Virus record (IMG/VR): IMGVR_UViG_3300045131_002106
Location: 1 to 31,862 of that record
Direction: 5' to 3' (one strand)
Length of the DNA stretch: 31,862 nt
Origin: a virus
Below are positions 1-23,310 of the stretch, piece after piece. How positions within the stretch are numbered: the first letter of the stretch is position 1; each line of letters begins with the position of its first letter. The notes beneath the pieces are model-generated. The model saw nothing but the letters and a program-made list of their open reading frames with translations, made no database searches and had not been told where the DNA came from. Both the position numbers and the translations under genes were made by a program.

Positions 1-85
1 GCCGCGACGAGGAAGAATTGTCCGGCGTTTGGCCCTTTCTTTGCTCTTGGATGATCTTTCTCGGAAAATTCTTCCTCGTCGCGGC
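1..85. repeat. 19-bp perfect inverted repeat at the window edge
   Basis: Bases 1-19 and 67-85 are exact reverse complements, separated by a 47-base spacer. The left arm starts at the first base of the window, so the repeat may extend further. It lies inside a coding frame, where the arms encode RDEEEF and QFFLVAA. It could be an invertible segment, a hairpin or a sequencing fold-back. Confidence 0.85.
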
Positions 86-152
86 AACAGACTTTGATGA
101 GCCGGAGTTGCTGGAGAGCCGAATCTTTTATTTTGATTTTGAATAGCTTCAT
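1..152 (-). CDS. Partial small head-region protein with HPR-GQF motif
   Basis: An ATG at 152 opens a frame that runs off the left edge, giving at least 50 residues. The start MKLFKIKIKD is a weak version of the MKLIRVKC start shared by its neighbours. A second resemblance, RLIKVCCRDEEEF, lies about 17 residues in. It is followed by DHPRAKKGPNAGQF, which resembles the HPR...GQF tails often found in phage head and Mu-F-type proteins (recalled family pattern). It is the last visible gene of the leftward head module. Function is unknown. The inverted repeat at 1-85 lies inside it, so the gene could be affected by inversion or by an assembly fold-back. Confidence 0.5.
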   Translation of the reverse strand, partial: MKLFKIKIKDSALQQLRLIKVCCRDEEEFSEKDHPRAKKGPNAGQFFLVA

Positions 153-167
153 AGTTTTGAGCTCAAA

Positions 168-486
168 TTAATCTTCAAATTCTACTTTTTTTATTTCTAC
201 TCGATTCTCTGGATAAACCTTAAAGAAGGCAGCGACTTTCTCTGCATCTTTTTTCGAAAAATGCAGCCCTGCCCACTTACTATGACTAACAAGATATTTC
301 CCTTCGGATAAATCGAGCATCTTTCCGTTAACATAAACCTCATAATCGAACATTCCAGGAACAGCCTTCTTCGAACATTCCAGGAACAGCCTTCTTCGAA
401 CATTGAACAGTCCCTATGGCCGATTGAGTATTTTTCCCGGTAAAAGTAAATCCGACATCGCATCTCTTCACTCTGATTAACTTCAT
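168..486 (-). pseudogene. MKLIRVK-family small gene split by a 25-bp duplication
   Basis: The frame opened by the ATG at 486 reads MKLIRVKRCD and continues to KAVPGMF, then shifts into EEGCSWNVRL and stops at 340. The second half (ATG at 353, stop at 168, 61 aa, starting MFDYEVYVNG) is in another frame. The junction is a tandem 25-bp duplication at 346-395. Removing one unit in silico joins ...KAVPGMF directly to DYEVYVNGKM and gives one open frame of 97 residues. The simplest reading is a recent or phase-variable inactivation. Alternatives are re-initiation at 353 or programmed slippage. Function is unknown. Confidence 0.75.
346..404. repeat. 25-bp tandem repeat, two full copies plus 9 bp
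   Basis: The unit at 346-370 is repeated exactly at 371-395, and its first 9 bases recur at 396-404. Because 25 is not a multiple of three, each added or lost unit changes the reading frame of the overlapping small gene. Confidence 0.92.
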
Positions 487-506
487 TTTAACCTTCCTTC
501 TTATAC

Positions 507-537
507 AACTTGTATTTAAGTCTTTCAAATCTGCGTT
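507..537. repeat. 31-bp repeat, copy A, in a degenerate coding remnant
   Basis: Bases 507-537 are identical to 2674-2704. On the minus strand both encode NADLKDLNTS just before a MKLIRVK-type gene. The surrounding 487-642 has no convincing start codon but is open in the frame leading into the gene at 486. It contains DSSEIERDSAEADINL, matched near copy B by DSAAIQRDYAEP. This looks like the remnant of a duplicated 3' gene end. The true Mu-F gene ends similarly (ERDTKDLN). Confidence 0.8.
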
Positions 538-642
538 TTTAGGCGGTAAATTCTGCGATTCCGTCAGAAGCCATAGATTAATATCAGCCTCTGCGGAATC
601 GCGCTCTATCTCGCTGGAATCAACGTTTTCGACTGTCTGTCT

Positions 643-894
643 TTAAATAGTTACTAAAACCCGTTCTGCCCTGAAGATTTCTTTTTTGGCATCTTCAATA
701 GCAATGTTTTTTGTTCTAAAGTCGACGCGATGAATCTTGTCTCCTTTTGCATTAGTAGCTTGATAATCCCATCTCTTCCATTTTGAATAAACGACTTCGA
801 TTTTCCAGTCGCCATAAGTTATTGTCTCGACGACTTTGTTTCGACCCCAACCGACTTTCATGTCGTCATTACATTTGACTTTGATTAACTTCAT
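643..894 (-). CDS. Small protein of the MKLIRVK family
   Basis: 83 residues starting MKLIKVKCNDD. The ATG at 894 follows AGAGG at about 7 bases. The remainder alternates charged and aromatic residues (GDWKIEVVYSKWKRWDY) and ends in an amphipathic helix-like segment, suggesting a compact alpha/beta fold. It lies in the leftward head operon between two other family members. No known domain was recognised. The shared start with otherwise unrelated bodies suggests a common tag or binding strand, which is inference. Confidence 0.75.
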   Translation of the reverse strand: MKLIKVKCNDDMKVGWGRNKVVETITYGDWKIEVVYSKWKRWDYQATNAKGDKIHRVDFRTKNIAIEDAKKEIFRAERVLVTI

Positions 895-942
895 TTGGTT
901 ACCTCTTTGGTTTATAGATCATATTTTTGATTTTGAATAACT

Positions 943-1209
943 TCACGATAACTCCCCGGTCAATATTTTGCGAGTGATTTCGTTTTTTGTGAAAGTCCAT
1001 TTATGCAGAGAGTAAACCTTATCAATGGTTAGTTTTTGAACTTCAGAATTATCCAGTCGCTCGTTATTTATGTTTTTTCTGATTATACCATAGTGCATCC
1101 GGTATAGTTGCATGAACATAATAAGCTCTTTCCGTTTCTCTTCCTGTTCGACGAATTTGCCGAAAGCTTCCCAGTTGTCGTCCTTGCATTTAACTCTGAT
1201 TAATTTCAT
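943..1209 (-). CDS. Small protein of the MKLIRVK family
   Basis: 88 residues starting MKLIRVKCKDD. The ATG at 1209 is preceded by AAAGGTGG and begins one base after the Mu-F-like gene ends, so the two are probably translationally coupled. The body is helical and basic (EEKRKELIMFMQLYRMHYG) and unlike the other family members beyond the start. No signal peptide or membrane segment was seen. Function is unknown; position implies expression with head genes. Confidence 0.75.
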   Translation of the reverse strand: MKLIRVKCKDDNWEAFGKFVEQEEKRKELIMFMQLYRMHYGIIRKNINNERLDNSEVQKLTIDKVYSLHKWTFTKNEITRKILTGELS

Positions 1210-1210
1210 C

Positions 1211-2359
1211 TTAACCCACCTTTCTTTTCATTTGATTTAAATCTTTAGTATCGCGTTCTAATTCCGGAATCACCGGATCGGCGAAACATCTACAGTTTAT
1301 CGCCATTCCTGGCGCCCCGTCTGGCGGCGGTTGCCTGAACGGTTTACCATTCGGAGCCAGCGGAGGATTCGCCATTCTATGGAAGAGATAAAATTTTCCT
1401 TGTCTGGACCAGTGATCTCCATGGGCGCGACTGTTCGGGTCAGCATTGGGATACAGCCCGCTCGGGTTCCCGGCCACCCGCCTGTCATTTGCATTATTCC
1501 ATTCATAACCAATTATCCCTATATTCTGCATCCGGAGATGACTGAATGTTGCAACCGCTTTCGATGTCTGGTCGCGAGCGATCAGTTTCGCCTTCAGCTT
1601 GGTTGTTCCCGTCAAATCTTGTATCGCTTGAATCAGCCCGCCTTCGAACTTCCGCTGTCCGGTCGCGTTCTGAATCGTCATCTGCTTAATATCCGAGAAG
1701 AACTTTTCCGGCAGAGATTTAATCAAATTCACATTCGCTTCGACCTGGGCTTCGTATGCTTTGGTCAAACCTTTCTCTGCCATGATGTTTAATATATTTA
1801 TTCCTGCCGCTTTTGCAAACTGCTTTCGGAATTTATCTTTAGCTTCTTTGAATGTCTTCTGCGCTTCCTGCTCTGCGATGTTTTGATAAGCATACAGCAG
1901 GTCTTGATATTTCCTCTGCAAGCGTTCGAGGCGTTCGTTGAACTGTTTCATTATCGGGTCGGATTCCGGAACCCGCTTGCCAATCTTGTCGGCATAATCT
2001 TCGACCGCAGTTTCGGGAATCAGCCATTCGCCTTCTGGGGTTTTAATCGCTTCGGGAATTAACCCTTTTCTGATGTCTTGCAACACCCGCGATTTAAGCG
2101 TTGAAATCAAGCGGGCGACTTCATAAGCGGTATAATACTTGAGAGCGTCCTTAACCGCAATCAGCTCCGGCAGTCCGGCAAATTCTTTCTGGGTCTGCAC
2201 TTGTTGGCGCTGACGTTCATTCATCTTCAGGACGAGCGGTTTGAGTTCCCGCTCATAGTCGGCATTCATTCGCTTCACCAACTCCATCAACTTGCGACGG
2301 AAAGAAGCGACATGGGAGTCGCTTAATATTATCGGGTTGAATTTGATTTGTGAAGCCAC
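1211..2359 (-). CDS. Mu gpF-like head protein with HTH_17-like segment
   Basis: 382 residues from a GTG at 2359, with GGAG about 10 bases upstream. The C-terminal third (about residues 255-370) has the Mu gpF/SPP1 gp7 minor head protein pattern: ARDQTSKA, GYEWNNANDRRV, an R-H-HW stretch, PPDGAPG and the closing CRC. Such proteins sit with the portal and assist head assembly or DNA ejection (family knowledge). Residues 74-126 are unusual: YTAYEVARLI, then RKGLIPEAIKTPEGEWLIPE and DYA, resembling the MerR/excisionase HTH_17 fold with its wing. A coiled-coil-like stretch spans about 130-185. The gene follows the portal with one small gene between. The Mu-F call is firm; the HTH call is inference from pattern. 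Confidence 0.85.
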   Translation of the reverse strand: MASQIKFNPIILSDSHVASFRRKLMELVKRMNADYERELKPLVLKMNERQRQQVQTQKEFAGLPELIAVKDALKYYTAYEVARLISTLKSRVLQDIRKGLIPEAIKTPEGEWLIPETAVEDYADKIGKRVPESDPIMKQFNERLERLQRKYQDLLYAYQNIAEQEAQKTFKEAKDKFRKQFAKAAGINILNIMAEKGLTKAYEAQVEANVNLIKSLPEKFFSDIKQMTIQNATGQRKFEGGLIQAIQDLTGTTKLKAKLIARDQTSKAVATFSHLRMQNIGIIGYEWNNANDRRVAGNPSGLYPNADPNSRAHGDHWSRQGKFYLFHRMANPPLAPNGKPFRQPPPDGAPGMAINCRCFADPVIPELERDTKDLNQMKRKVG

Positions 2360-2363
2360 GAAT

Positions 2364-2654
2364 TTATACTCCGTTTGAATAACGCCTGATTAATAGCTTG
2401 ATTTTATTGGATGTATAATCCACTCTGTTCTCGGTAACAATCGCGCTCGCAAGCGCCTCTCCGGCGGACGAATTAAGGAATTTGTTCACCTTGCTGTCGT
2501 CCCACTCGCCCTCTTTCTTAACGATGTCGAAGATTCTTTTAAAAGCACCTGCGGCGAGTTGCTCATCTTTCAATATGCTGTTCGCTTTGGCATAGAAGCC
2601 GGTGCCCTTCTGCATATCGATTCCGTCGCACTTTTTCACCCTGATAATCTTCAT
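2364..2654 (-). CDS. Small protein of the MKLIRVK family (KKCD variant)
   Basis: 96 residues starting MKIIRVKKCDG. The ATG at 2654 follows AAAAGGAGATGAAAG. It lies between the portal and Mu-F genes and stops 4 bases before the Mu-F GTG. The body looks largely helical (ANSILKDEQLAAGAFKRIFD and NSSAGEALASAIV). The DNA just upstream plus the first codons form a module also found before the genes at 486 and 1209. Function is unknown. Confidence 0.75.
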   Translation of the reverse strand: MKIIRVKKCDGIDMQKGTGFYAKANSILKDEQLAAGAFKRIFDIVKKEGEWDDSKVNKFLNSSAGEALASAIVTENRVDYTSNKIKLLIRRYSNGV

Positions 2655-2669
2655 CTTTCATCTCCTTTT

Positions 2670-2795
2670 CTATAACTTGTATTTAAGTCTTTCAAATCTG
2701 CGTTCTTGTCCGTCGAATTCGCGTCGAAACACGAAACGCGATACTATATGCGGGCTCTGCGTAATCGCGCTGTATTGCCGCGGAATCGCTTGTTT
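2670..2795 (-). other. In-frame open extension after the portal stop; coding remnant
   Basis: Downstream of the portal TAA (2796-2798) the same frame stays open for 41 codons to a TAG at 2670. The segment lacks a start codon. In another frame it encodes DSAAIQRDYAEP, similar to the remnant at 487-642, and it ends in the shared 31-bp repeat. Relic of a duplicated gene end is more likely than functional readthrough. Confidence 0.4.
2674..2704. repeat. 31-bp repeat, copy B
   Basis: Identical to 507-537. It lies just upstream of the MKIIRVKKCD gene, as copy A lies just upstream of the MKLIRVKRCD gene. The conserved DNA module therefore includes upstream sequence, ribosome binding site and first codons. 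Confidence 0.88.
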
Positions 2796-4238
2796 TTAAG
2801 CCTTCGCCTCGAACACTTCATCTCCTGTTTGGTTATATAGTTCATCCGCGATGTCGAGCGCCTCATTGAGCCCGACTTCGTTTTCTGCTTTCTCGGTCTC
2901 GAGACGCTGGACATCTTCTTTTGTAAAGTTCTTAAATGTCTTCCGCTCCAGTAATTCCAGTCGCGCAATCTTCTTGTCGATAAAACCAGCATCGCAAGCC
3001 CTGGCCAACATATCGATGAAGGCGCTGTCCTTCTCCTGCTTCTTACCGGGCGACTCGCGCTCAAGTTCGGGGAAGGTGATATTGAAGTCTGCTGGCATTA
3101 ATTCGTTGAAATAAGAGGGGATAATCCACTTCTTAAAGATGTCGATCAAATGCGGCTTAATTCGATTGTTCTGATACGCTTCTAACATATCGTAATAATT
3201 GCCCAAGTCACCCTCGCCGGTCGCCGTCAATCCCTTCGCTGATTCGCCAACCAGTTTCGTTACCGGGATTCCGGTCGCGGCAGAACAGATGATATAATAG
3301 CGTTCCAAAATCGGGTCGAGCCCGCTTAATGCGCCGAGTTCCAAATTGGATAATTCTTCGCTCGCGTCAATAATTGCCATATTGTTATTTGACATCTGAT
3401 AGTTCAGAATATTCATACGCTCCAGGAATGCAGAGCGTGACTCGGGGTCGGCGACAATATTGATTAAATCTTCGACCTTCATCACCGGGACGCTTGCCCG
3501 GAATAGAAGTGTCGCGATACTGTTATCTACCGTTCCGGCGTTCCTGATTGCGTCGTATGCAATGCCAAGCACCGAAGCGCCCCAATACATATTCCGCTGA
3601 CGTTCATACCACGGCATCCACTCGCCGCCGAATCTCTGTATCCTGCTTCTATGGACAACCGAGCCAGTGATGAAATTCGAATTGTCTTTTCCGCTCTGCA
3701 AGTTAATCATCCCGGCAGAACCAATCGTATATGTTTCGGGATATAAATAATTATCTTTGAGCGGGTTCATCAAATTGATTTCGGAAGCATAACATTGCCA
3801 GGCATCGAACATCTGAAGCGTCAACAATGTCTTGCCGGGGAGGAAATCAGGAATAGGGTTTCTCATTGCGCCCCAAGTGTCATCAGTCAATGCAGTAATC
3901 ACCGAGCCGCCGAATGTTCTTTCTGATTTAAGGCCGCGAAGCATCAACTCCTGGAGATTGAGAAATTCGGTGTATTTGTTCAGCTTCTCAATCTTCTCCG
4001 GTTCCCAGGACGGACATGATACTGTCCAGCCTTTCTTGAGCGCCTCTTCCGGAATCAAGTCAACGATTCTGCGCCCGAGCCAACTGCCGTATATCGCGGA
4101 GAGCTCTTGATATCCATAGAAGGAAGATGCAGTATGGAATGACTGTTGAAGTCTATCTGAACCATAATTCATGTTCGCGGTCAGATTGACGAGCGAGTCA
4201 GTTTCTTTTCTGATTAATTTTATTGATTTGTGGTTCAT
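2796..4238 (-). CDS. Phage portal protein (DUF1073 type)
   Basis: 480 residues from an ATG at 4238. The N-terminal third matches the DUF1073 portal pattern: YGSWLGRRIVDLIPEEALKKGW (shown in part; residues about 49-70), then FGGSVITAL, and centrally VHRSRIQRF, SVLGIAYDAIRN and SAATGIPVTKLVGESAKGL. The latter is the typical stem/wing region before TATGEGDLGNYYD. Portal subunits form the dodecameric ring at one capsid vertex through which DNA is packaged and ejected. Length is normal for the family. The gene is followed by Mu-F, the usual portal-minor head protein order. The ribosome binding site is weak (CGGAAA). Major capsid and terminase large subunit genes are not visible and probably lie outside the window. 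Confidence 0.9.
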   Translation of the reverse strand: MNHKSIKLIRKETDSLVNLTANMNYGSDRLQQSFHTASSFYGYQELSAIYGSWLGRRIVDLIPEEALKKGWTVSCPSWEPEKIEKLNKYTEFLNLQELMLRGLKSERTFGGSVITALTDDTWGAMRNPIPDFLPGKTLLTLQMFDAWQCYASEINLMNPLKDNYLYPETYTIGSAGMINLQSGKDNSNFITGSVVHRSRIQRFGGEWMPWYERQRNMYWGASVLGIAYDAIRNAGTVDNSIATLLFRASVPVMKVEDLINIVADPESRSAFLERMNILNYQMSNNNMAIIDASEELSNLELGALSGLDPILERYYIICSAATGIPVTKLVGESAKGLTATGEGDLGNYYDMLEAYQNNRIKPHLIDIFKKWIIPSYFNELMPADFNITFPELERESPGKKQEKDSAFIDMLARACDAGFIDKKIARLELLERKTFKNFTKEDVQRLETEKAENEVGLNEALDIADELYNQTGDEVFEAKA

Positions 4239-4249
4239 AGGGTTTCCGA

Positions 4250-4465
4250 TTATTTGCGTTTGATCGCCTTGTTATAATAAGCCACCGCTTCTCTTTGGTC
4301 GTCGGAACCGAACCATAAATCGTTCTTGTAGAAGACCAAGAAGCGGAATGTTCCATCTGGCTCAGGCACTTTGTCCAGGAACCAATTTCCTTGATTCTTC
4401 AATGTTACGGTGCCGTCTGTATCCATTGTATGAACATCGGCGCATTTGACTCGAATTAGTTTCAT
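4250..4465 (-). CDS. Small protein of the MKLIRVK family
   Basis: 71 residues starting MKLIRVKCADV. The ATG at 4465 follows AGAGGCCGAAAT. A longer upstream frame exists but has no better start. The body contains GNWFLDKV, FRFLVFYKNDLWF and a C-terminal helix (EAVAYYNKAIKRK). It lies immediately upstream of the portal gene, so late co-expression is likely. Function is unknown. Confidence 0.75.
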   Translation of the reverse strand: MKLIRVKCADVHTMDTDGTVTLKNQGNWFLDKVPEPDGTFRFLVFYKNDLWFGSDDQREAVAYYNKAIKRK

Positions 4466-4475
4466 ATTTCGGCCT

Positions 4476-4772
4476 CTATTTATTAAGGTTCTTAGAAATA
4501 TAATCGCCGACCGGTCCATACTTACCGGTTGCTGGTTTTGCCGGGAGTATATATTTGACGATTCCGGGCTCTTTATATCCGCCTCTTGCCTCAAATTTAT
4601 TATCTTTGGTTAAAATCCCTAAATCAAAAAGCCGCTTGCCAACCTCGTCACTGGCTTGATAGCGTTCTTTGTCATATAACCGAAGCCACTGTTTCGCCAA
4701 AGACATTGCACTTGCAATATCTTCTGCATCGCCGTCGCACTTCACCATCTTAACTGTTCTGAGAATTTTCAT
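4476..4772 (-). CDS. Small protein of the MKLIRVK family (variant start)
   Basis: 98 residues starting MKILRTVKMVKCDGD, an expanded version of the family start that keeps VKCD. It overlaps the upstream gene by 4 bases (ATGA). The body is helical (AEDIASAMSLAKQWLRLYD), followed by a glycine/proline-rich end (PATGKYGPVGDYI). Function is unknown. Confidence 0.7.
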   Translation of the reverse strand: MKILRTVKMVKCDGDAEDIASAMSLAKQWLRLYDKERYQASDEVGKRLFDLGILTKDNKFEARGGYKEPGIVKYILPAKPATGKYGPVGDYISKNLNK

Positions 4773-5008
4773 ATCCTCTCTCCTGCTTTTAATTTTTTAT
4801 AGATATCTATCCACTCGGATAATTTCAATTCGCCGACGCTGTAGACCGGAACCGAACTCGAATACCAGCCCGCCGCATCGCCGCCATAGAAGTAGTAATA
4901 GCCCCGGCCGTGCGTCAGCCGCTCTTTCGCACCGATACGCTTCAGCTCTGCGTTGACGGTGGCGACAGTCGCTTCTTCGTCGGTGCATTTGACTCGGATT
5001 AGTTTCAT
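4769..5008 (-). CDS. Small protein of the MKLIRVK family with GYYYFYGGDAAGW motif
   Basis: 79 residues starting MKLIRVKCTDE. The ATG at 5008 is preceded by AAGG at about 11 bases. The body has a helix (VNAELKRIG), the motif RGYYYFYGGDAAGWYSSSV and a C-terminal SEWIDIYKKLK helix. From memory, this GYYYF-GG-(T/S)SV pattern with a following L..W helix is common among small unnamed phage proteins. Here it is joined to the family start, which supports mix-and-match assembly of these genes. Function is unknown. Confidence 0.75.
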   Translation of the reverse strand: MKLIRVKCTDEEATVATVNAELKRIGAKERLTHGRGYYYFYGGDAAGWYSSSVPVYSVGELKLSEWIDIYKKLKAGERI

Positions 5009-5010
5009 AA

Positions 5011-5289
5011 TTAATTTGCCTTGATTTTTAGATAAGTCGAGAACGGATATTTTGATTTAAATTGTTCCAGCGTTTCGACATCGAGTTGATTGATTCTGAG
5101 AAACTTTCCTTTTCTCTTTTCGATTTCTTTCATCCCGGCAGATTTTGCATTCGACTCGCTGGATGCTTCGATCGCGAGTGTCTTTATTGTATAAAAGCCG
5201 GGGCCAACATTATCTACACCCTCTAATCTATACTCAACCCCATAAACCTTCGTCCCTGCGTCCTTACATTTAACCTTAATCAATTTCAT
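5011..5289 (-). CDS. Small protein of the MKLIRVK family
   Basis: 92 residues starting MKLIKVKCKDA. The ATG at 5289 comes 3 bases after the ferritin-like gene stops and follows CCGGAGTTGAAAG. The body has a predicted strand pair (VYGVEYRLEG, GFYTIKTLAIEA) and a basic middle. It is the family member nearest the promoter at 5764-5792. Function is unknown. Confidence 0.75.
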   Translation of the reverse strand: MKLIKVKCKDAGTKVYGVEYRLEGVDNVGPGFYTIKTLAIEASSESNAKSAGMKEIEKRKGKFLRINQLDVETLEQFKSKYPFSTYLKIKAN

Positions 5290-5292
5290 CTT

Positions 5293-5697
5293 TCAACTCC
5301 GGTTTATTTTGAGTGTTCTTTTCTGCGGAGCAGTATATTCGGCTTCTTTATTCTGCTCTTCGCTCTGCCCGGCTTCTTCTGCATTCTCATCTGTCGCAGT
5401 TGCCTTGAGTAGTTTCTCCGCTTCTTTGCGTCCCTGCTTGCAAGCGTCATCATCTGCGGGATCTAATAACTGCAAGACATGGCGGAACTCGCCGACATGG
5501 ACAAGTTCTTCCGTCGCTATCGCCCGCAGTATTTTCGCGGCTTCTTGATGCTGTGGCTCGCTGGCTTCGGCGAGTTGTATATAAAGATTCGCCGCATCCA
5601 TTTCGGCGCATATCATCTGCCGGATAGCCCGAACGAGTTCTTCTTTCGTCAGCTTCCGATCGACCCCGATTGCAGAGAAGGCATTTGAAAATTGCAT
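5293..5697 (-). CDS. Ferritin-like protein resembling encapsulin-associated ferritin
   Basis: 134 residues from the ATG at 5697, chosen over an upstream frame because AAGGA lies 10 bases before it. Residues 17-80 read KEELVRAIRQMICAEMDAAN, then LYIQLAEA, and ILRAIATEELVHVGEFRHVL. This has the ferritin-like iron ligand pattern (E32, E63/E64, H67, E70) and closely resembles the ferritin domain fused to encapsulin shells of Pyrococcus type (comparison from memory). The C-terminal tail is acidic and then basic. It is the first gene after the promoter at 5764-5792, so it heads the visible head operon. Possible roles are iron handling in the capsid or a purely structural four-helix part. No capsid gene is visible, so the link to a shell is inferred. 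Confidence 0.75.
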   Translation of the reverse strand: MQFSNAFSAIGVDRKLTKEELVRAIRQMICAEMDAANLYIQLAEASEPQHQEAAKILRAIATEELVHVGEFRHVLQLLDPADDDACKQGRKEAEKLLKATATDENAEEAGQSEEQNKEAEYTAPQKRTLKINRS

Positions 5698-18332: not shown

Positions 18333-19079
18333 ATGAGTGAAGTTACATTGTCCAAAATGATCGAAGCCGCAATCGACATCAACGAACTGTTGGCTTTCGA
18401 CGCCCCAATCAAAGTTGAAGGAAAAGATGTTGTCCAGATCACGGCGCAGATTGAAAAGAAGCAGAAAGGCGATGACGCTTTCCTCGCAACCGATTTTGTT
18501 CCCGGCGCCAAAAACTCCCTGAAGATTGCAACCGTGGCCGCATTAAAGGCAATGAAAGTCACAATGCCGAAAATCTGGGCGGACCGCTTGGCCGATGCTA
18601 TTGAAGACGGTGTCGTTGATTACGAAGCTCCTGCGAAAGACAAGTCCAGCGAAGTGCAGGCCAAGGGCAAGGCAAAAGTAGACGAAGCCAAGGCGAAATC
18701 CAAGCCGGCGGCCCCGAAAACAGAAGTGAAGGGCAAAAAAGTCGACAAGAAGACAGATGCGGAAGTCGAAGCAGAAGTAATGAAAGAAGTCGAAGGCGAC
18801 AACGACAGCGAAATCGAAGCTGAAGTCGTCAAAGAGGTCAAAAAAGCCGCGAAAGATGCGAAGCTCAGCAACAAGAGCATCTTCGGTCATAACCGCTCCG
18901 CAATTTCCGGCAAGATTGACGAAGAGTTGATTGCAAACGGCGGGACGCTTGAGACGATTGCGGCCGCGGCTGGATGTGATACTGCTCGCGCCAAAGCCCA
19001 TATCAATCACCTTGTCGCGAATAAAGGCGCAGAAATCACCTTGGACGAAGAGGGCAATTATGCTATCGTCCTCGCCTAA
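18333..19079 (+). CDS. Protein with Lys/Ala/Glu linker and C-terminal HTH-like end
   Basis: 248 residues starting MSEVTLSKMI. The ATG at 18333 follows AAGGAGGCTAAA. Residues 1-90 are an unrecognised alpha/beta domain. Residues about 95-180 are a low-complexity, highly charged linker (AKAKVDEAKAKSKPAAPK) with an internal repeat (VEAEVMKEV and IEAEVVKEV). The end has a helix-turn-helix-like pattern (GGTLETIAAAAGCDTARAKA then HINHLVANKG and a wing-like EITLDEEGNY). This suggests a DNA-associated protein, perhaps binding phage DNA during replication or modification. First gene of the operon, followed with 20-bp overlap by the radical SAM gene. Confidence 0.6.
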   Translation: MSEVTLSKMIEAAIDINELLAFDAPIKVEGKDVVQITAQIEKKQKGDDAFLATDFVPGAKNSLKIATVAALKAMKVTMPKIWADRLADAIEDGVVDYEAPAKDKSSEVQAKGKAKVDEAKAKSKPAAPKTEVKGKKVDKKTDAEVEAEVMKEVEGDNDSEIEAEVVKEVKKAAKDAKLSNKSIFGHNRSAISGKIDEELIANGGTLETIAAAAGCDTARAKAHINHLVANKGAEITLDEEGNYAIVLA

Positions 19080-20073
19080 TATCGTCAAGGCAGAGATGCT
19101 GTGGACGCGAAAGTGTCCACTTCATTGCGACTACTGCTCGATGGCAACAGGTCAACCCAATACTCGCGATTTAGAGTATTGGGTTGAGACTGCAAGACAG
19201 CTGAAAAAGTTGAATTGCAGTTTCGCCGCATTCTATGGCGCAGAGCCCCTTTTCGACGACATTGACAAGCTATCCAGAACGATCCAATACTTCGAGAGTA
19301 TTGGAATTGCGACCACGGTTATCACTAGCGGCTTCGTATCGAGCCTGACATCGAAACTCGATGTTCTTTGGTCGCGCAATTTGCGGAGCTTGAGTATGAG
19401 TTACGATATTTTGCCGCTCTGTGACAGTTCTAAAATCAAGACATCGAAGGCGCTGGAGACATTGCAGTATTTTCAATCACTTGGAAAATACCGGGATGTC
19501 GCGGCCATTGCAACATTGACCCGCAAGAATTTTCGCGCTCTTCCGGAAAGTATAAAAACTTTGTCGAAGATGAATATTTGGACTTTTTTCGATATGATAC
19601 ATTCGAACAGGAATCAACCGGGCTCAAAAGTTAAAGACAGCGAGATAACTCGCGAACTGCTTTTTGCCCCGGAAGATTTTAATGACTTGGCAGAAGTATT
19701 ACGCGAGGTGCTTGCACTCAAGCGCGAAGGAATGCTTTGTCATGTTTCGGAATTGTTTATCGATAAAGTTATGGCAAACGATTTCGAAGTTCTGCGGAAA
19801 TATAATTGGCATTGTTGCGATCATCTCAGTTTCCCGGCATGGGTTTCGATAGACTGCGACGGAACGGTGTCTTGTTGCGACGACTACAAGAGCGATAAAA
19901 TTAAGATCTATTCAAACAGAATAGCCGAAGATTTTCAACTGTTTTCCAAACTGTATCGGGAATCTGCGCGAGCGGAGTGCTCCGGATGTCTTTGGAACAC
20001 TCATTATGATGCCCATATGATTAAGGAAGGCCGATACGGAATCGGCAATTATATTCACGGAGAAAGAGAATGA
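19060..20073 (+). CDS. Radical SAM protein with SPASM-like C-terminus
   Basis: 337 residues. The ATG at 19060, inside the previous gene end, follows GAGGG. The radical SAM signature C-x3-C-x2-C is RKCPLHCDYC (C19, C23, C26), binding a [4Fe-4S] cluster. GAEPL replaces the usual GGEP. The C-terminal part has HCCDHL, the SPASM-like SIDCDGTVSCCDDY and ECSGCLW, probably ligating an auxiliary cluster. QueE, the radical SAM step of 7-deazaguanine synthesis, is normally shorter and lacks these extra cysteines, so this is either a divergent replacement or an enzyme modifying a later intermediate. It lies in one operon with methyltransferase, QueC, FolE and DpdA genes, implying action on the modified base. 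Confidence 0.85.
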   Translation: MLSSSPNIVKAEMLWTRKCPLHCDYCSMATGQPNTRDLEYWVETARQLKKLNCSFAAFYGAEPLFDDIDKLSRTIQYFESIGIATTVITSGFVSSLTSKLDVLWSRNLRSLSMSYDILPLCDSSKIKTSKALETLQYFQSLGKYRDVAAIATLTRKNFRALPESIKTLSKMNIWTFFDMIHSNRNQPGSKVKDSEITRELLFAPEDFNDLAEVLREVLALKREGMLCHVSELFIDKVMANDFEVLRKYNWHCCDHLSFPAWVSIDCDGTVSCCDDYKSDKIKIYSNRIAEDFQLFSKLYRESARAECSGCLWNTHYDAHMIKEGRYGIGNYIHGERE

Positions 20074-20621
20074 AAAAATTGAACCTCGGATGTGGCGACG
20101 ATATCTTGATTGGATACGACAACTGTGACATCTTTCCTTGTCAGCCGTCTGTTATCCAAGCAGACATCTTGAATTTAAGAGGAATCCCGTCGGACAATTA
20201 TGCGGAGATTAAATGTTGCATGGTTTTGGAACACGTCCATATCGACTTGGTGCCAACAGCACTGTATCAGATATCGAGAGTTCTTGCTCCAGGCGGGTTT
20301 GTGGACATTACTGTTCCAGACTTCGATTATTTCGTGCAGAAGTATTTGAACAATAAAGGCAAGTTAACGAAGACGATGAACTTCCATAACTTCTACAATA
20401 TTACCTACAATCTTCTCGCACCAGAAATCGATCCGAAAATAAGAACTCATCAAGCGTTATTCACCGAAGAGTTCCTGACGATTTTGCTGGTTGACGATGG
20501 ATTTGTTAATGTCGAAACAGTCAGGAAAGCTGGCGGGATTTTGACTGTCTGGGCATTTAAGCATGACGGGAGTTCAAGCACTTTAAAATATGATACTTCT
20601 ACGGAGAGAGAAAATGAATGA
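20070..20621 (+). CDS. Class I SAM-dependent methyltransferase
   Basis: 183 residues. The ATG overlaps the radical SAM stop (ATGA). Motif I is KLNLGCGDD, an acidic residue after GYDNCD ends strand 2, ADILNLRGIP gives the motif II region, and MVLEHVHIDLVPTALYQISR followed by VLAPGGFVDITVPD matches the COG4627-like methyltransferase pattern. Such enzymes transfer methyl groups from SAM. The substrate is unknown. Position suggests the 7-deazaguanine base or a precursor. A 7-deazaguanine methyltransferase (DpdM) has been described in phages, but I understand it has a different fold, so this would be a separate solution. Confidence 0.82.
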   Translation: MKKLNLGCGDDILIGYDNCDIFPCQPSVIQADILNLRGIPSDNYAEIKCCMVLEHVHIDLVPTALYQISRVLAPGGFVDITVPDFDYFVQKYLNNKGKLTKTMNFHNFYNITYNLLAPEIDPKIRTHQALFTEEFLTILLVDDGFVNVETVRKAGGILTVWAFKHDGSSSTLKYDTSTERENE

Positions 20622-21579
20622 AGTTCTTTTATTTTCGGGCGGCATAGATTCTTATGTTGCCTGGCATTACTTGAAGAAACCCAAGACTGTTTATTTCGAT
20701 CTGGGAACACCTTATTCCTCACGCGAGGCTCAAGCTGTATTGCAACTCGTCCCAAACACTGTGATCGACAGGAGCCTTGTTCTCGGCGATAGACAGGCGG
20801 GAATTAATGCCTACATCCCTTATCGAAACCTTTTCTTGGCAATGTTGGCATCTAAATACGGAGACAAGATTTGGATTGCTGGATTAAAAGACGACATGGT
20901 TTCAGACAAAACTCCTGCCGCTTTTTTCGCGATGGAGTCTTGTTTAAACTTTATCGACAAGAAGAAAGTCGTAATAGACAGTCCGTTCTGGAATACAACG
21001 AAATCGCAAGTTGTTGAGTGGTATATTAATCAGGCTCTCGACAAGAACGAGTTGCTGAAAACAATCTCCTGCTATAATGACAAGGAGCAGACAAATTACT
21101 GCGGCACTTGTCCAAGCTGTTTTAGAAAATGGAACGCCTTGCGCGAAAATGGAATTGACATAGAATTCTATAATCCGAAGTTAATGCAGGAATATATCCA
21201 AAGCGCCGAGAACCTTAAATACGACCCGGAGAGGAATTTGTCGATTGTTAAGTGTTGCTCAAATTATACTTGCAAGCGGATTTTTCACTTCGACATCGAT
21301 GGGGTTATTACCAACGAAACGGAAGGATGGGATTATGCGGCCCGGACACCGAATACAGAAGTAATCGACAAAATTAAGGAATTGGCAAAGGGTGGAAATC
21401 GAATAGTGTTCTACACTGCTCGTTTCTCCTGCGACCGCGAAGTGACAGAGCAATGGTTGGCGAAACACGAGATTCAATATTCGAATATCATTTTTGATAA
21501 ACCCGGATATGATTATTTCGTGGACGACAAGGCATACAATTCAATTCACGAACTTTTCAAAAACAAAGGAGCTGTATGA
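20614..21579 (+). CDS. queC: QueC-HAD fusion, 7-cyano-7-deazaguanine synthase-like
   Basis: 321 residues starting MNEVLLFSGG. The ATG at 20614 follows GGAGAGAGAAA. Residues 1-185: PP-loop SGGIDS (8-13) and a zinc site from C153 plus CGTCPSC (163-169), as in QueC, which converts 7-carboxy-7-deazaguanine to preQ0 using ATP and ammonia. Residues 222-315: HAD phosphohydrolase, with FHFDIDGVI (nucleophile D227, D229), YTAR (268-270) and a YFVDDKA motif IV. Family QueC is about 220-230 residues, so the HAD domain is an addition. The HAD half might remove phosphate from a deazaguanine nucleotide (inference). The gene overlaps its neighbours by 4-8 bases, supporting one pathway. Confidence 0.88.
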   Translation: MNEVLLFSGGIDSYVAWHYLKKPKTVYFDLGTPYSSREAQAVLQLVPNTVIDRSLVLGDRQAGINAYIPYRNLFLAMLASKYGDKIWIAGLKDDMVSDKTPAAFFAMESCLNFIDKKKVVIDSPFWNTTKSQVVEWYINQALDKNELLKTISCYNDKEQTNYCGTCPSCFRKWNALRENGIDIEFYNPKLMQEYIQSAENLKYDPERNLSIVKCCSNYTCKRIFHFDIDGVITNETEGWDYAARTPNTEVIDKIKELAKGGNRIVFYTARFSCDREVTEQWLAKHEIQYSNIIFDKPGYDYFVDDKAYNSIHELFKNKGAV

Positions 21580-22511
21580 AAACAAGATACTCAGCCGCGC
21601 AATTTTATGAAGACGTCGCTGTCGTTGCCAAATCAATCCACGCCAAAGGCAGACAGTATTCGCATATCTATCCGATTCCACAAGGTGGAATTCCTTTTGG
21701 AATGGCATTGGCAAGAGAGCTGAAGGCAATGTTTGGCAAAGCAGTTCATATTCTCGACGAAGATGAATACGAAAGCTTAAGAACCCAAAACCAAGAAATT
21801 TTAGTTGTCGACGACATTGCTGATAGCGGCAGAACACTCATGCCCTATAAAGACAGATGCGACACCGCAGTCCTGCACCTGAGGGCGTCCTGCAATTTTA
21901 TCCCAACTTATCATGCGAATTTCGTGCGAGATACTGCTTGGATTGAGTATTGGTGGGAAAATAAAAAGAGCGACATCGAAAGTCACATTGTTCGCCAAAT
22001 CGAATACATTGGAGAAGACCCAAATCGAGAAGGATTGCGCGAAACTCCTGCCCGGGTTGTGAAATCATGGAGCAAGCTGTTTGGCGGATATAAAGCATCT
22101 CTTGAAGATGTTTTCAAGACGTTCGAAGAAGGAGCTTGCGATGAGCTCGTTATCCTCAAGGACATCGAATTCTACAGTCAGTGCGAACATCACTTATTGC
22201 CGTTTTATGGTAAAGCCCATATTGGATACATCCCCGATGGCAAAGTGATTGGCGTCAGCAAGCTGGCAAGACTGCTCGAAGTATTCTCTCGCAGAATGCA
22301 AATTCAAGAAAGGATTGGAGAGCAGGTTACGACCGCGCTGATGGAGCACTTGCACCCGAAAGGCGCAATTTGTGTTCTTGAGGCTCAGCATCACTGCATG
22401 ACGTCTAGAGGGGTCGAAAAACAAGACTCGGTCATGGTGACGAGCTCAATCAAAGGCGCCTTTAAACAAATCGAAACAAGAGCGGAATTCCTCTCTTTGA
22501 TAAAGGCATAA
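21576..22511 (+). CDS. folE: Phosphoribosyltransferase-GTP cyclohydrolase I fusion
   Basis: 311 residues. Residues 1-128: type I phosphoribosyltransferase, with PQGGIP and the PRPP loop ILVVDDIADSGRTL (75-88). The late DTAWIEYWW resembles the base-binding DTWIEQPW end of guanine-xanthine Gpt enzymes (recalled). Residues 136-310: GTP cyclohydrolase I, with IGEDPNREGLRETPARV, CEHHLLPF (zinc ligands C203, H206), GVSKLARL and QHHCMTSRG (C274). FolE makes dihydroneopterin triphosphate, the first step toward preQ0. The stand-alone family length is about 190-220, so the first domain is extra. It might recycle guanine freed by base exchange into GMP, or make a deazaguanine nucleotide; both are inference. 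Confidence 0.9.
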   Translation: MKTRYSAAQFYEDVAVVAKSIHAKGRQYSHIYPIPQGGIPFGMALARELKAMFGKAVHILDEDEYESLRTQNQEILVVDDIADSGRTLMPYKDRCDTAVLHLRASCNFIPTYHANFVRDTAWIEYWWENKKSDIESHIVRQIEYIGEDPNREGLRETPARVVKSWSKLFGGYKASLEDVFKTFEEGACDELVILKDIEFYSQCEHHLLPFYGKAHIGYIPDGKVIGVSKLARLLEVFSRRMQIQERIGEQVTTALMEHLHPKGAICVLEAQHHCMTSRGVEKQDSVMVTSSIKGAFKQIETRAEFLSLIKA

Positions 22512-22515
22512 GATT

Positions 22516-23310
22516 ATGAATATTTTCATGGACAGCGGAGCGTTCTCTGCGCTTAATAAAAAGCAGAAAATCAACTTGACGGAATATATGGATTTCCTGA
22601 AAAGGAATATGAAGTATTTTTCCGCTTATGTTGTTCTCGATGTTATCGGCGATGCCGTTGCAACTTGGAAGAACCAGGAAATAATGGAGAAGGAAGGGCT
22701 TTCCCCGCTCCCTGTTTATCACTTTCGGGATAACCCAAAATATTTAGACAGGTGTTTGGAATACGATTACTTCTGTCTTGGAGGTATTGCAGGAACACCG
22801 ACGAACAATGTTCGAATTCCTTTCTTCAACGACTGCTTCGACAAGATTTGTAATGAGGAAGGGATACCGCAAAATAAAGTTCACGGATTGGGAATGACGT
22901 CTTTTTCATTAATCCGGAGATATCCGTTCTACAGCGTTGACTCTACAAGCTGGTTGATGAATGGGGCAATGGGCGGGATAATTGTTCCAATAAGAAGAAG
23001 AGGAGTTTTCGTATATGACGAAGATCCGTTCAAGATCGCCGTATCTGGAACAAGCCCGCAGACTGGAAGAGATTTGCATTACGACTCGCTCAATATGGAT
23101 GCCAAGAAAAATGTCGACGATTATTTAAAGTTCAAAGGCTATTTCCTTGGACGGAAAGACGTCGACAATAAACACGAAGAAGCAGGGCTTTACTCCAGTC
23201 ACTACGAGCGGATGAAATTGAATATGGAGTTCTTTATTGATTTCCGCAATTCATTGCCGAAATGGCCTTGGCCCATTAAATTTCACAAACAGAAAAGGAG
23301 GTTGTGGTGA
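22516..23310 (+). CDS. dpdA: DpdA-like DNA 7-deazaguanine transglycosylase
   Basis: 264 residues. A TGT-like TIM barrel: MNIFMDSGAF (D6 matches the conserved DSGGF Asp), YVVLDVIGD, PLPVYHF, CLGGIAG (matching GG-A-G), HGLGMTS and YSVDSTSW (D142 as candidate nucleophile). It is shorter than tRNA TGT (about 370) and lacks the TGT zinc site, as DpdA proteins do. DpdA exchanges guanine in DNA for a 7-deazaguanine, protecting phage DNA from restriction (established for the family). FolE and QueC genes immediately upstream, in one overlapping operon, support this over a tRNA enzyme. The subfamily and the exact base cannot be told from sequence alone. Confidence 0.85.
   Translation: MNIFMDSGAFSALNKKQKINLTEYMDFLKRNMKYFSAYVVLDVIGDAVATWKNQEIMEKEGLSPLPVYHFRDNPKYLDRCLEYDYFCLGGIAGTPTNNVRIPFFNDCFDKICNEEGIPQNKVHGLGMTSFSLIRRYPFYSVDSTSWLMNGAMGGIIVPIRRRGVFVYDEDPFKIAVSGTSPQTGRDLHYDSLNMDAKKNVDDYLKFKGYFLGRKDVDNKHEEAGLYSSHYERMKLNMEFFIDFRNSLPKWPWPIKFHKQKRRLW

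Follow-up and report, generated by a model that had tools for sequence, protein, structure and literature searches.

Phages inject proteins as well as DNA, and the signals that load such proteins are known in few systems (T4, P1 and giant phages), a clear shared consensus being rare. In T4, about ten N-terminal residues target the divergent, mostly basic bodies of the internal proteins IPI, IPII and IPIII to the head, and the set of internal/CTS proteins differs between related T4-like phages (PMC9026906). In P1, an N-terminal packaging signal directs DarB to the head, and no consensus is reported for the N-termini of the Dar proteins (PMC9024508). Encapsulins load unrelated cargos through short targeting peptides, which are C-terminal on ferritin-like cargo and N-terminal on a secondary ferredoxin cargo (PMC8346489). 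Here we describe two related uncultivated phages in which the same ten-residue front end, with the consensus M-K-(L/I)-(I/L)-(R/K)-V-K-x-x-D, stands on about twenty otherwise unrelated small proteins. One is represented by the window, i.e., the whole 31,862-nt stretch analyzed (IMGVR_UViG_3300045131_002106, positions 1–31,862), and the other by its relative G001 (IMGVR_UViG_3300031521_000069, 59.8 kb).

As with the T4 CTS, about ten N-terminal residues recur on small and mostly basic proteins whose bodies diverge, and the set differs between the related phages; the hallmark of the T4 type, a short N-terminal segment common to otherwise unrelated proteins of one phage, is present. Unlike the T4 system, the one described here is putative in its packaging role, has more bodies per genome (8–11) and uses another tag sequence, in which no likeness to the published CTS description and no recognizable prohead-protease cleavage site were found. 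T4-like head or core genes are likewise absent, the head genes being of the phrog_146, 324, 530 and 264 types, with a DUF1073-like portal, a Mu-F protein and a phrog_530 protease. The P1 DarB signal is also N-terminal, whereas here the consensus is strong and the role putative. The locus is like encapsulin cargo loading in that a short peptide stands on unrelated proteins and a putative encapsulin-type ferritin is encoded beside the portal; it is unlike encapsulins in that the shell here would be a phage head with portal and protease, with cargo binding putative, and a TVGSL-type encapsulin motif is absent by inspection from all 20 tags and both ferritin tails. Judged by its sequence features, the tag resembles a capsid-targeting tag in anatomy and evolution, and it is not assigned to the T4 or encapsulin systems because no sequence relationship to either was found.

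Tagged genes in the window

The original prediction held that at least eight genes share the start MKLI(R/K)VKC-D, that they are interleaved with portal, Mu-F and ferritin genes, and that their bodies diverge completely. When the 31.9-kb record was scanned for the motif in six frames, exactly eight tagged starts and no more were recovered, all of them minus-strand ATG codons within a tightly packed series of late genes (486, 894, 1209, 2654, 4465, 4772, 5008 and 5289); each lies precisely where it had been placed and bears the tag or a close variant. The products are those of gene 5289 (5011–5289, 92 aa, MKLIKVKCKD), gene 5008 (4769–5008, 79 aa, MKLIRVKCTD), gene 4772 (4476–4772, 98 aa), gene 4465 (4250–4465, 71 aa, MKLIRVKCAD), gene 2654 (2364–2654, 96 aa, MKIIRVKKCD), gene 1209 (943–1209, 88 aa, MKLIRVKCKD), gene 894 (643–894, 83 aa, MKLIKVKCND) and gene 486 (340–486, 48 aa as read, MKLIRVKRCD). 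Gene 4772 carries a variant tag, MKILRTVKMVKCD, of the same form as MKILRTLKMKKAD in the relative. Interleaved with them on the same strand, as foreseen, are the genes for the portal protein (2796–4238; phrog_146, E 1.3e-89, and alignment with the relative), an untagged Mu-F type head morphogenesis protein (1211–2359; phrog_324, E 2.4e-43) and a ferritin-like protein (5293–5697). The portal N-terminus, KSIKLIRKETDS, bears a weak likeness to the tag. The divergence of the bodies was borne out as well, the best all-against-all BLASTP match over 190 pairs having an E of 0.011.

Two genes near the contig end are irregular. For the weak ninth member proposed at 152, the tag-like start stands (MKLFKIKIKD, with LRLIKVCCRDE further on as another stretch like the tag; translation MKLFKIKIKDSALQQLRLIKVCCRDEEEF); the gene itself (1–152, minus strand) is incomplete and runs off the contig. 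A 24-nt inverted repeat (1–24/62–85) lies inside this gene at the extreme record end, within positions 1–85, and may mark an assembly break. Gene 486 stops after 48 residues because a perfect 25-nt tandem duplication at 346–395 shifts the frame, another frame being open afterwards (353–168); the duplication is either a genuine mutation or an assembly error close to the contig end. In another part of the window (18931–23310), genes resembling by eye a radical SAM enzyme, QueC, FolE and a DpdA-like protein possibly form a 7-deazaguanine DNA modification pathway.

Conservation of the tag at the protein level

The number of tagged genes is far beyond chance. With residues 2–11 compared by BLOSUM62, 15 pairs of N-termini reached the threshold on crude gene calls for the window that missed a few tagged genes; when residues were shuffled inside each N-terminus, the average was 0.19 pairs and none of 300 trials gave more than 2. 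Seven genes make up these pairs, all but one of them tagged. Pairwise comparison of seven window tags gave 0.98 synonymous differences per site (saturated) and 0.06 nonsynonymous ones, in genes picked by protein similarity, which favors a low nonsynonymous-to-synonymous ratio. Differences fall at codon position 1 in 16% of comparisons, at position 2 in 7% and at position 3 in 51%, and identity is 78% over the tag codons, 43% over the 24 nt upstream and 32% over codons 11–20. That the similarity might be no more than a ribosome-binding constraint on the DNA, which the original prediction had named as its refutation, does not hold against these synonymous and nonsynonymous values. Since so many tagged genes far exceed chance, these values are most simply read as constraint on the peptide. 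There is thus good support for a tag shared at the protein level; it recurs in the second phage on other bodies, and one of the bodies exists elsewhere untagged.

Traces of duplication are also visible in the DNA. About 150 nt of related non-coding sequence lie upstream of genes 486 and 2654 (487–642 and 2655–2795), which suggests that the upstream region was duplicated together with the tag; a promoter scan of this duplicated region gave no site passing. A short frame at 899–946, just upstream of gene 894, opens with the tag-like start (V)KLFKIKN, of which 20/21 nt are identical to the start of gene 152, and is a possible scar of a lost tagged gene.

The second phage and the exchangeable bodies

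Between the window and G001, identity is 62% for the portal, 53% for Mu-F and 45% for the ferritin. The late module of G001 carries the tag, there of the form MKIIKVK-xD, on eleven small genes, with the starts MKIIKVWVGD, MKIIKVKCSD, MKIIKIRKTD, MRILKVKIGD, MKIIKVKCKD, MKIIKVKIGD, MRTLKVKKTD, MKLIKVKIGD, MKILRTLKMKKAD, MKVIKVKVSD and MKIIRVAKKGD. Within each phage the tags look closer to one another than to those of the other phage, L3 and C8 being typical of the window, and I3 and often I8-G9 of G001. No body is common to both phages, either tagged or untagged. In both, all tagged genes lie in the late virion module, and the early and replication modules have none. They sit at junctions of the portal–Mu-F–protease–capsid–tail module, and in G001 at several virion-gene junctions from portal to tail tube, some of them among the neck, sheath and tube genes. 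They are mostly below the core genes in G+C. In the distant relatives Alcaligenes phage CASP1 and Vibrio phage 1.054.O, no small genes lie between portal, Mu-F and protease. These syntenic junctions free of small genes, together with the differing bodies, identify the tagged genes as accessory insertions.

The original prediction had proposed looking for the start motif across phages. In IMG/VR, the codon pattern MK(hydrophobic)I(K/R)VKxxD is limited to 32 stretches and forms clusters only in the one relative; a first pattern without isoleucine at residue 3 had zero matches there, and wider ones picked up the relative and, apart from it, nothing but scattered single matches. A scan of the genome collection gave 110 single matches and no clusters. 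Searches with the portal, Mu-F, major head protein and ferritin returned no further close relative beyond G001, in IMG/VR searches that may omit near relatives, so that one independent relative is available (n = 1); G002, a 12.9-kb fragment with the same genes as G001, is not a second one. The tagged proteins gave no match or weak ones to named phages in tblastn, and the tag strings were not found in the literature.

Two bodies belong to known families. Almost the whole of phrog_9154 is matched by residues 13–73 of gene 5008 (E 6.9e-15), and the match of a G001 gene, 36803, to phrog_1375 begins at its residue 15 (E 1.9e-6). Fold comparison of 5008 gave a weak match (E 0.24) to a 69-residue protein of Serratia phage 2050H1, whose gene (MLTIKAVNRAIAQAG...) is untagged and aligns from residue 14 of 5008; this homologue begins at the equivalent of residue 9–10 of the body alignment, about where the 5008 tag ends. 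A PDB match of 5008 to RecA fusions was set aside, as no stretch of it is significant by itself. Modelled from single sequences at modest confidence (mean pLDDT 69), 5008 has an alpha-beta body, its tag forming a strand. The body of 34439 is all-helical in its model, and the tag there is unstructured. The bodies are small and mostly basic (pI above 8 in 15/20). Because the bodies of the second phage are all different and that of 5008 is known untagged, the tag is best described as a portable N-terminal peptide on exchangeable accessory genes.

An alternative is that all tagged proteins are one family diverged past recognition, which has kept only the first beta strand of a common fold. The strand formed by the tag in the 5008 model fits this reading, as does the fact that all the proteins are small and neighbors. 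However, no body similarity is detectable, the bodies match different families, the 5008 body exists untagged and the 34439 model, itself of modest confidence, does not place the tag in a strand. A single diverged family is unlikely given the differing families and models, and we regard it as very improbable. Still less probable, in our judgement, is that the tag serves mainly as a recombination handle, repeated gene starts permitting swapping while the peptide does little. The upstream sequence shared by genes 486 and 2654 along with their tags would fit, as would the scar-like fragment at 899–946, the tandem tags in gene 152 and a 14-nt repeat that ends the G001 portal gene; yet a DNA handle should keep its DNA, and here the synonymous sites have reached saturation and the upstream regions mostly bear no relation to one another.

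Ferritins, C-terminal likenesses and candidate roles

Ferritins are encoded beside the portal in both phages (window 5293–5697; G001 38701–39054), and they appear EncB/EncFtn-like, of the encapsulin cargo type, by matches below curated cut-offs. The window ferritin matches NF058679 with an E of 7e-19 (67.9 bits, below the curated cut-off of 90) and TIGR04535 with an E of 2e-12 (cut-off 125); its counterpart in the other phage matches NF058679 with an E of 5e-19, also below the curated cut-off. Against the PDB, the window ferritin matches 5n5e (E 1.5e-13), with further matches to 2e0z and EncC 7s8t. The two ferritins have similar C-terminal tails preceded by different linkers. When 137 genes were ranked for tag-like C-terminal hexamers, the top eight included the G001 portal (KKIIKVKNENN), ferritin (KRILKLSK) and head protease (RLLKLNGGK) as well as the window ferritin (KRTLKINRS), the non-portal likenesses being individually weak and all sought after the fact; a stricter profile scan of C-termini singled out only the G001 portal. 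The end of that gene holds an exact tag copy, KKIIKVK (G001 37089–37102; L041:17089–17102), and is possibly a recombination scar, because this DNA and the start of the next tagged gene together make up a 14-nt tandem repeat. Tags at N-termini combined with a ferritin tail at the C-terminus have a precedent, because encapsulin peptides sit at either terminus (PMC8346489). The apparent encapsulin type of the ferritin and the tag-like C-termini are weak hints of cargo loading.

We propose, at about an even chance, that the ten-residue tag is a portable docking peptide through which its carriers enter the virion. The phage would put the tag on any small accessory protein that it acquires; a conserved late protein, presumably the prohead shell, the scaffold/protease or the portal, would bind it; by virtue of this binding the tagged proteins would be built into the virion, and delivery along with the DNA would probably follow. 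What the bodies would then do is a guess, host take-over or counter-defense, modelled on the T4 internal proteins. Capsid targeting, which the original prediction had raised beside targeting to a common partner, is what we infer from the location of the genes, the small basic bodies, the accessory turnover, the putative encapsulin-type ferritin and the tag-like C-termini. Against loading into heads stands the position of some tagged genes of G001 among the neck, sheath and tube genes. A more specific version, which we advance only tentatively and think rather unlikely, is a head-loading code, in which one basic-hydrophobic peptide, N-terminal on the changing small proteins and C-terminal on the encapsulin-type ferritin, head protease and portal, would sort all of them into the prohead.

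A docking peptide might instead have its partner outside the virion, namely a complex of host or phage origin in the infected cell (RNA polymerase, replisome, membrane or assembly chaperone) that recruits late accessory effectors. All direct evidence for a protein-level tag fits such a partner just as well, and tags are found among head and tail genes alike; confinement of the tagged genes to the late virion module of both phages, with none in the early or replication modules, and the occurrence of the tag-like C-termini on virion proteins speak against it, and we consider it rather unlikely. The tag might also be an expression or stability element, either a favorable translation start, as K- and I-rich starts can be, or an N-terminal signal for a host protease or unfoldase such as ClpX. 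The ClpX N-terminal degradation signal of the lambda O type reads polar-hydrophobic-hydrophobic-basic-hydrophobic, and by inspection most tags fit this pattern. However, the residues stay fixed although their codons are free to vary, the conserved V6, K7 and D10 exceed so loose a motif, two MKILRT variants break it, and other late genes of the same operon do without the tag, which leaves such an element with a small probability.

A docking peptide for virion proteins would have consequences beyond these two phages. The head-loading code, if true, would mean that an ordinary tailed phage has an encapsulin-like cargo system with no relation to the T4 one. With a compact tag on some twenty bodies in two phages, sequence alone would suffice to recognize virion or injected proteins, and the tag would be an easy means of getting proteins into phage particles. 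It would also permit testing whether encapsulin cargo loading and phage head loading share a logic.
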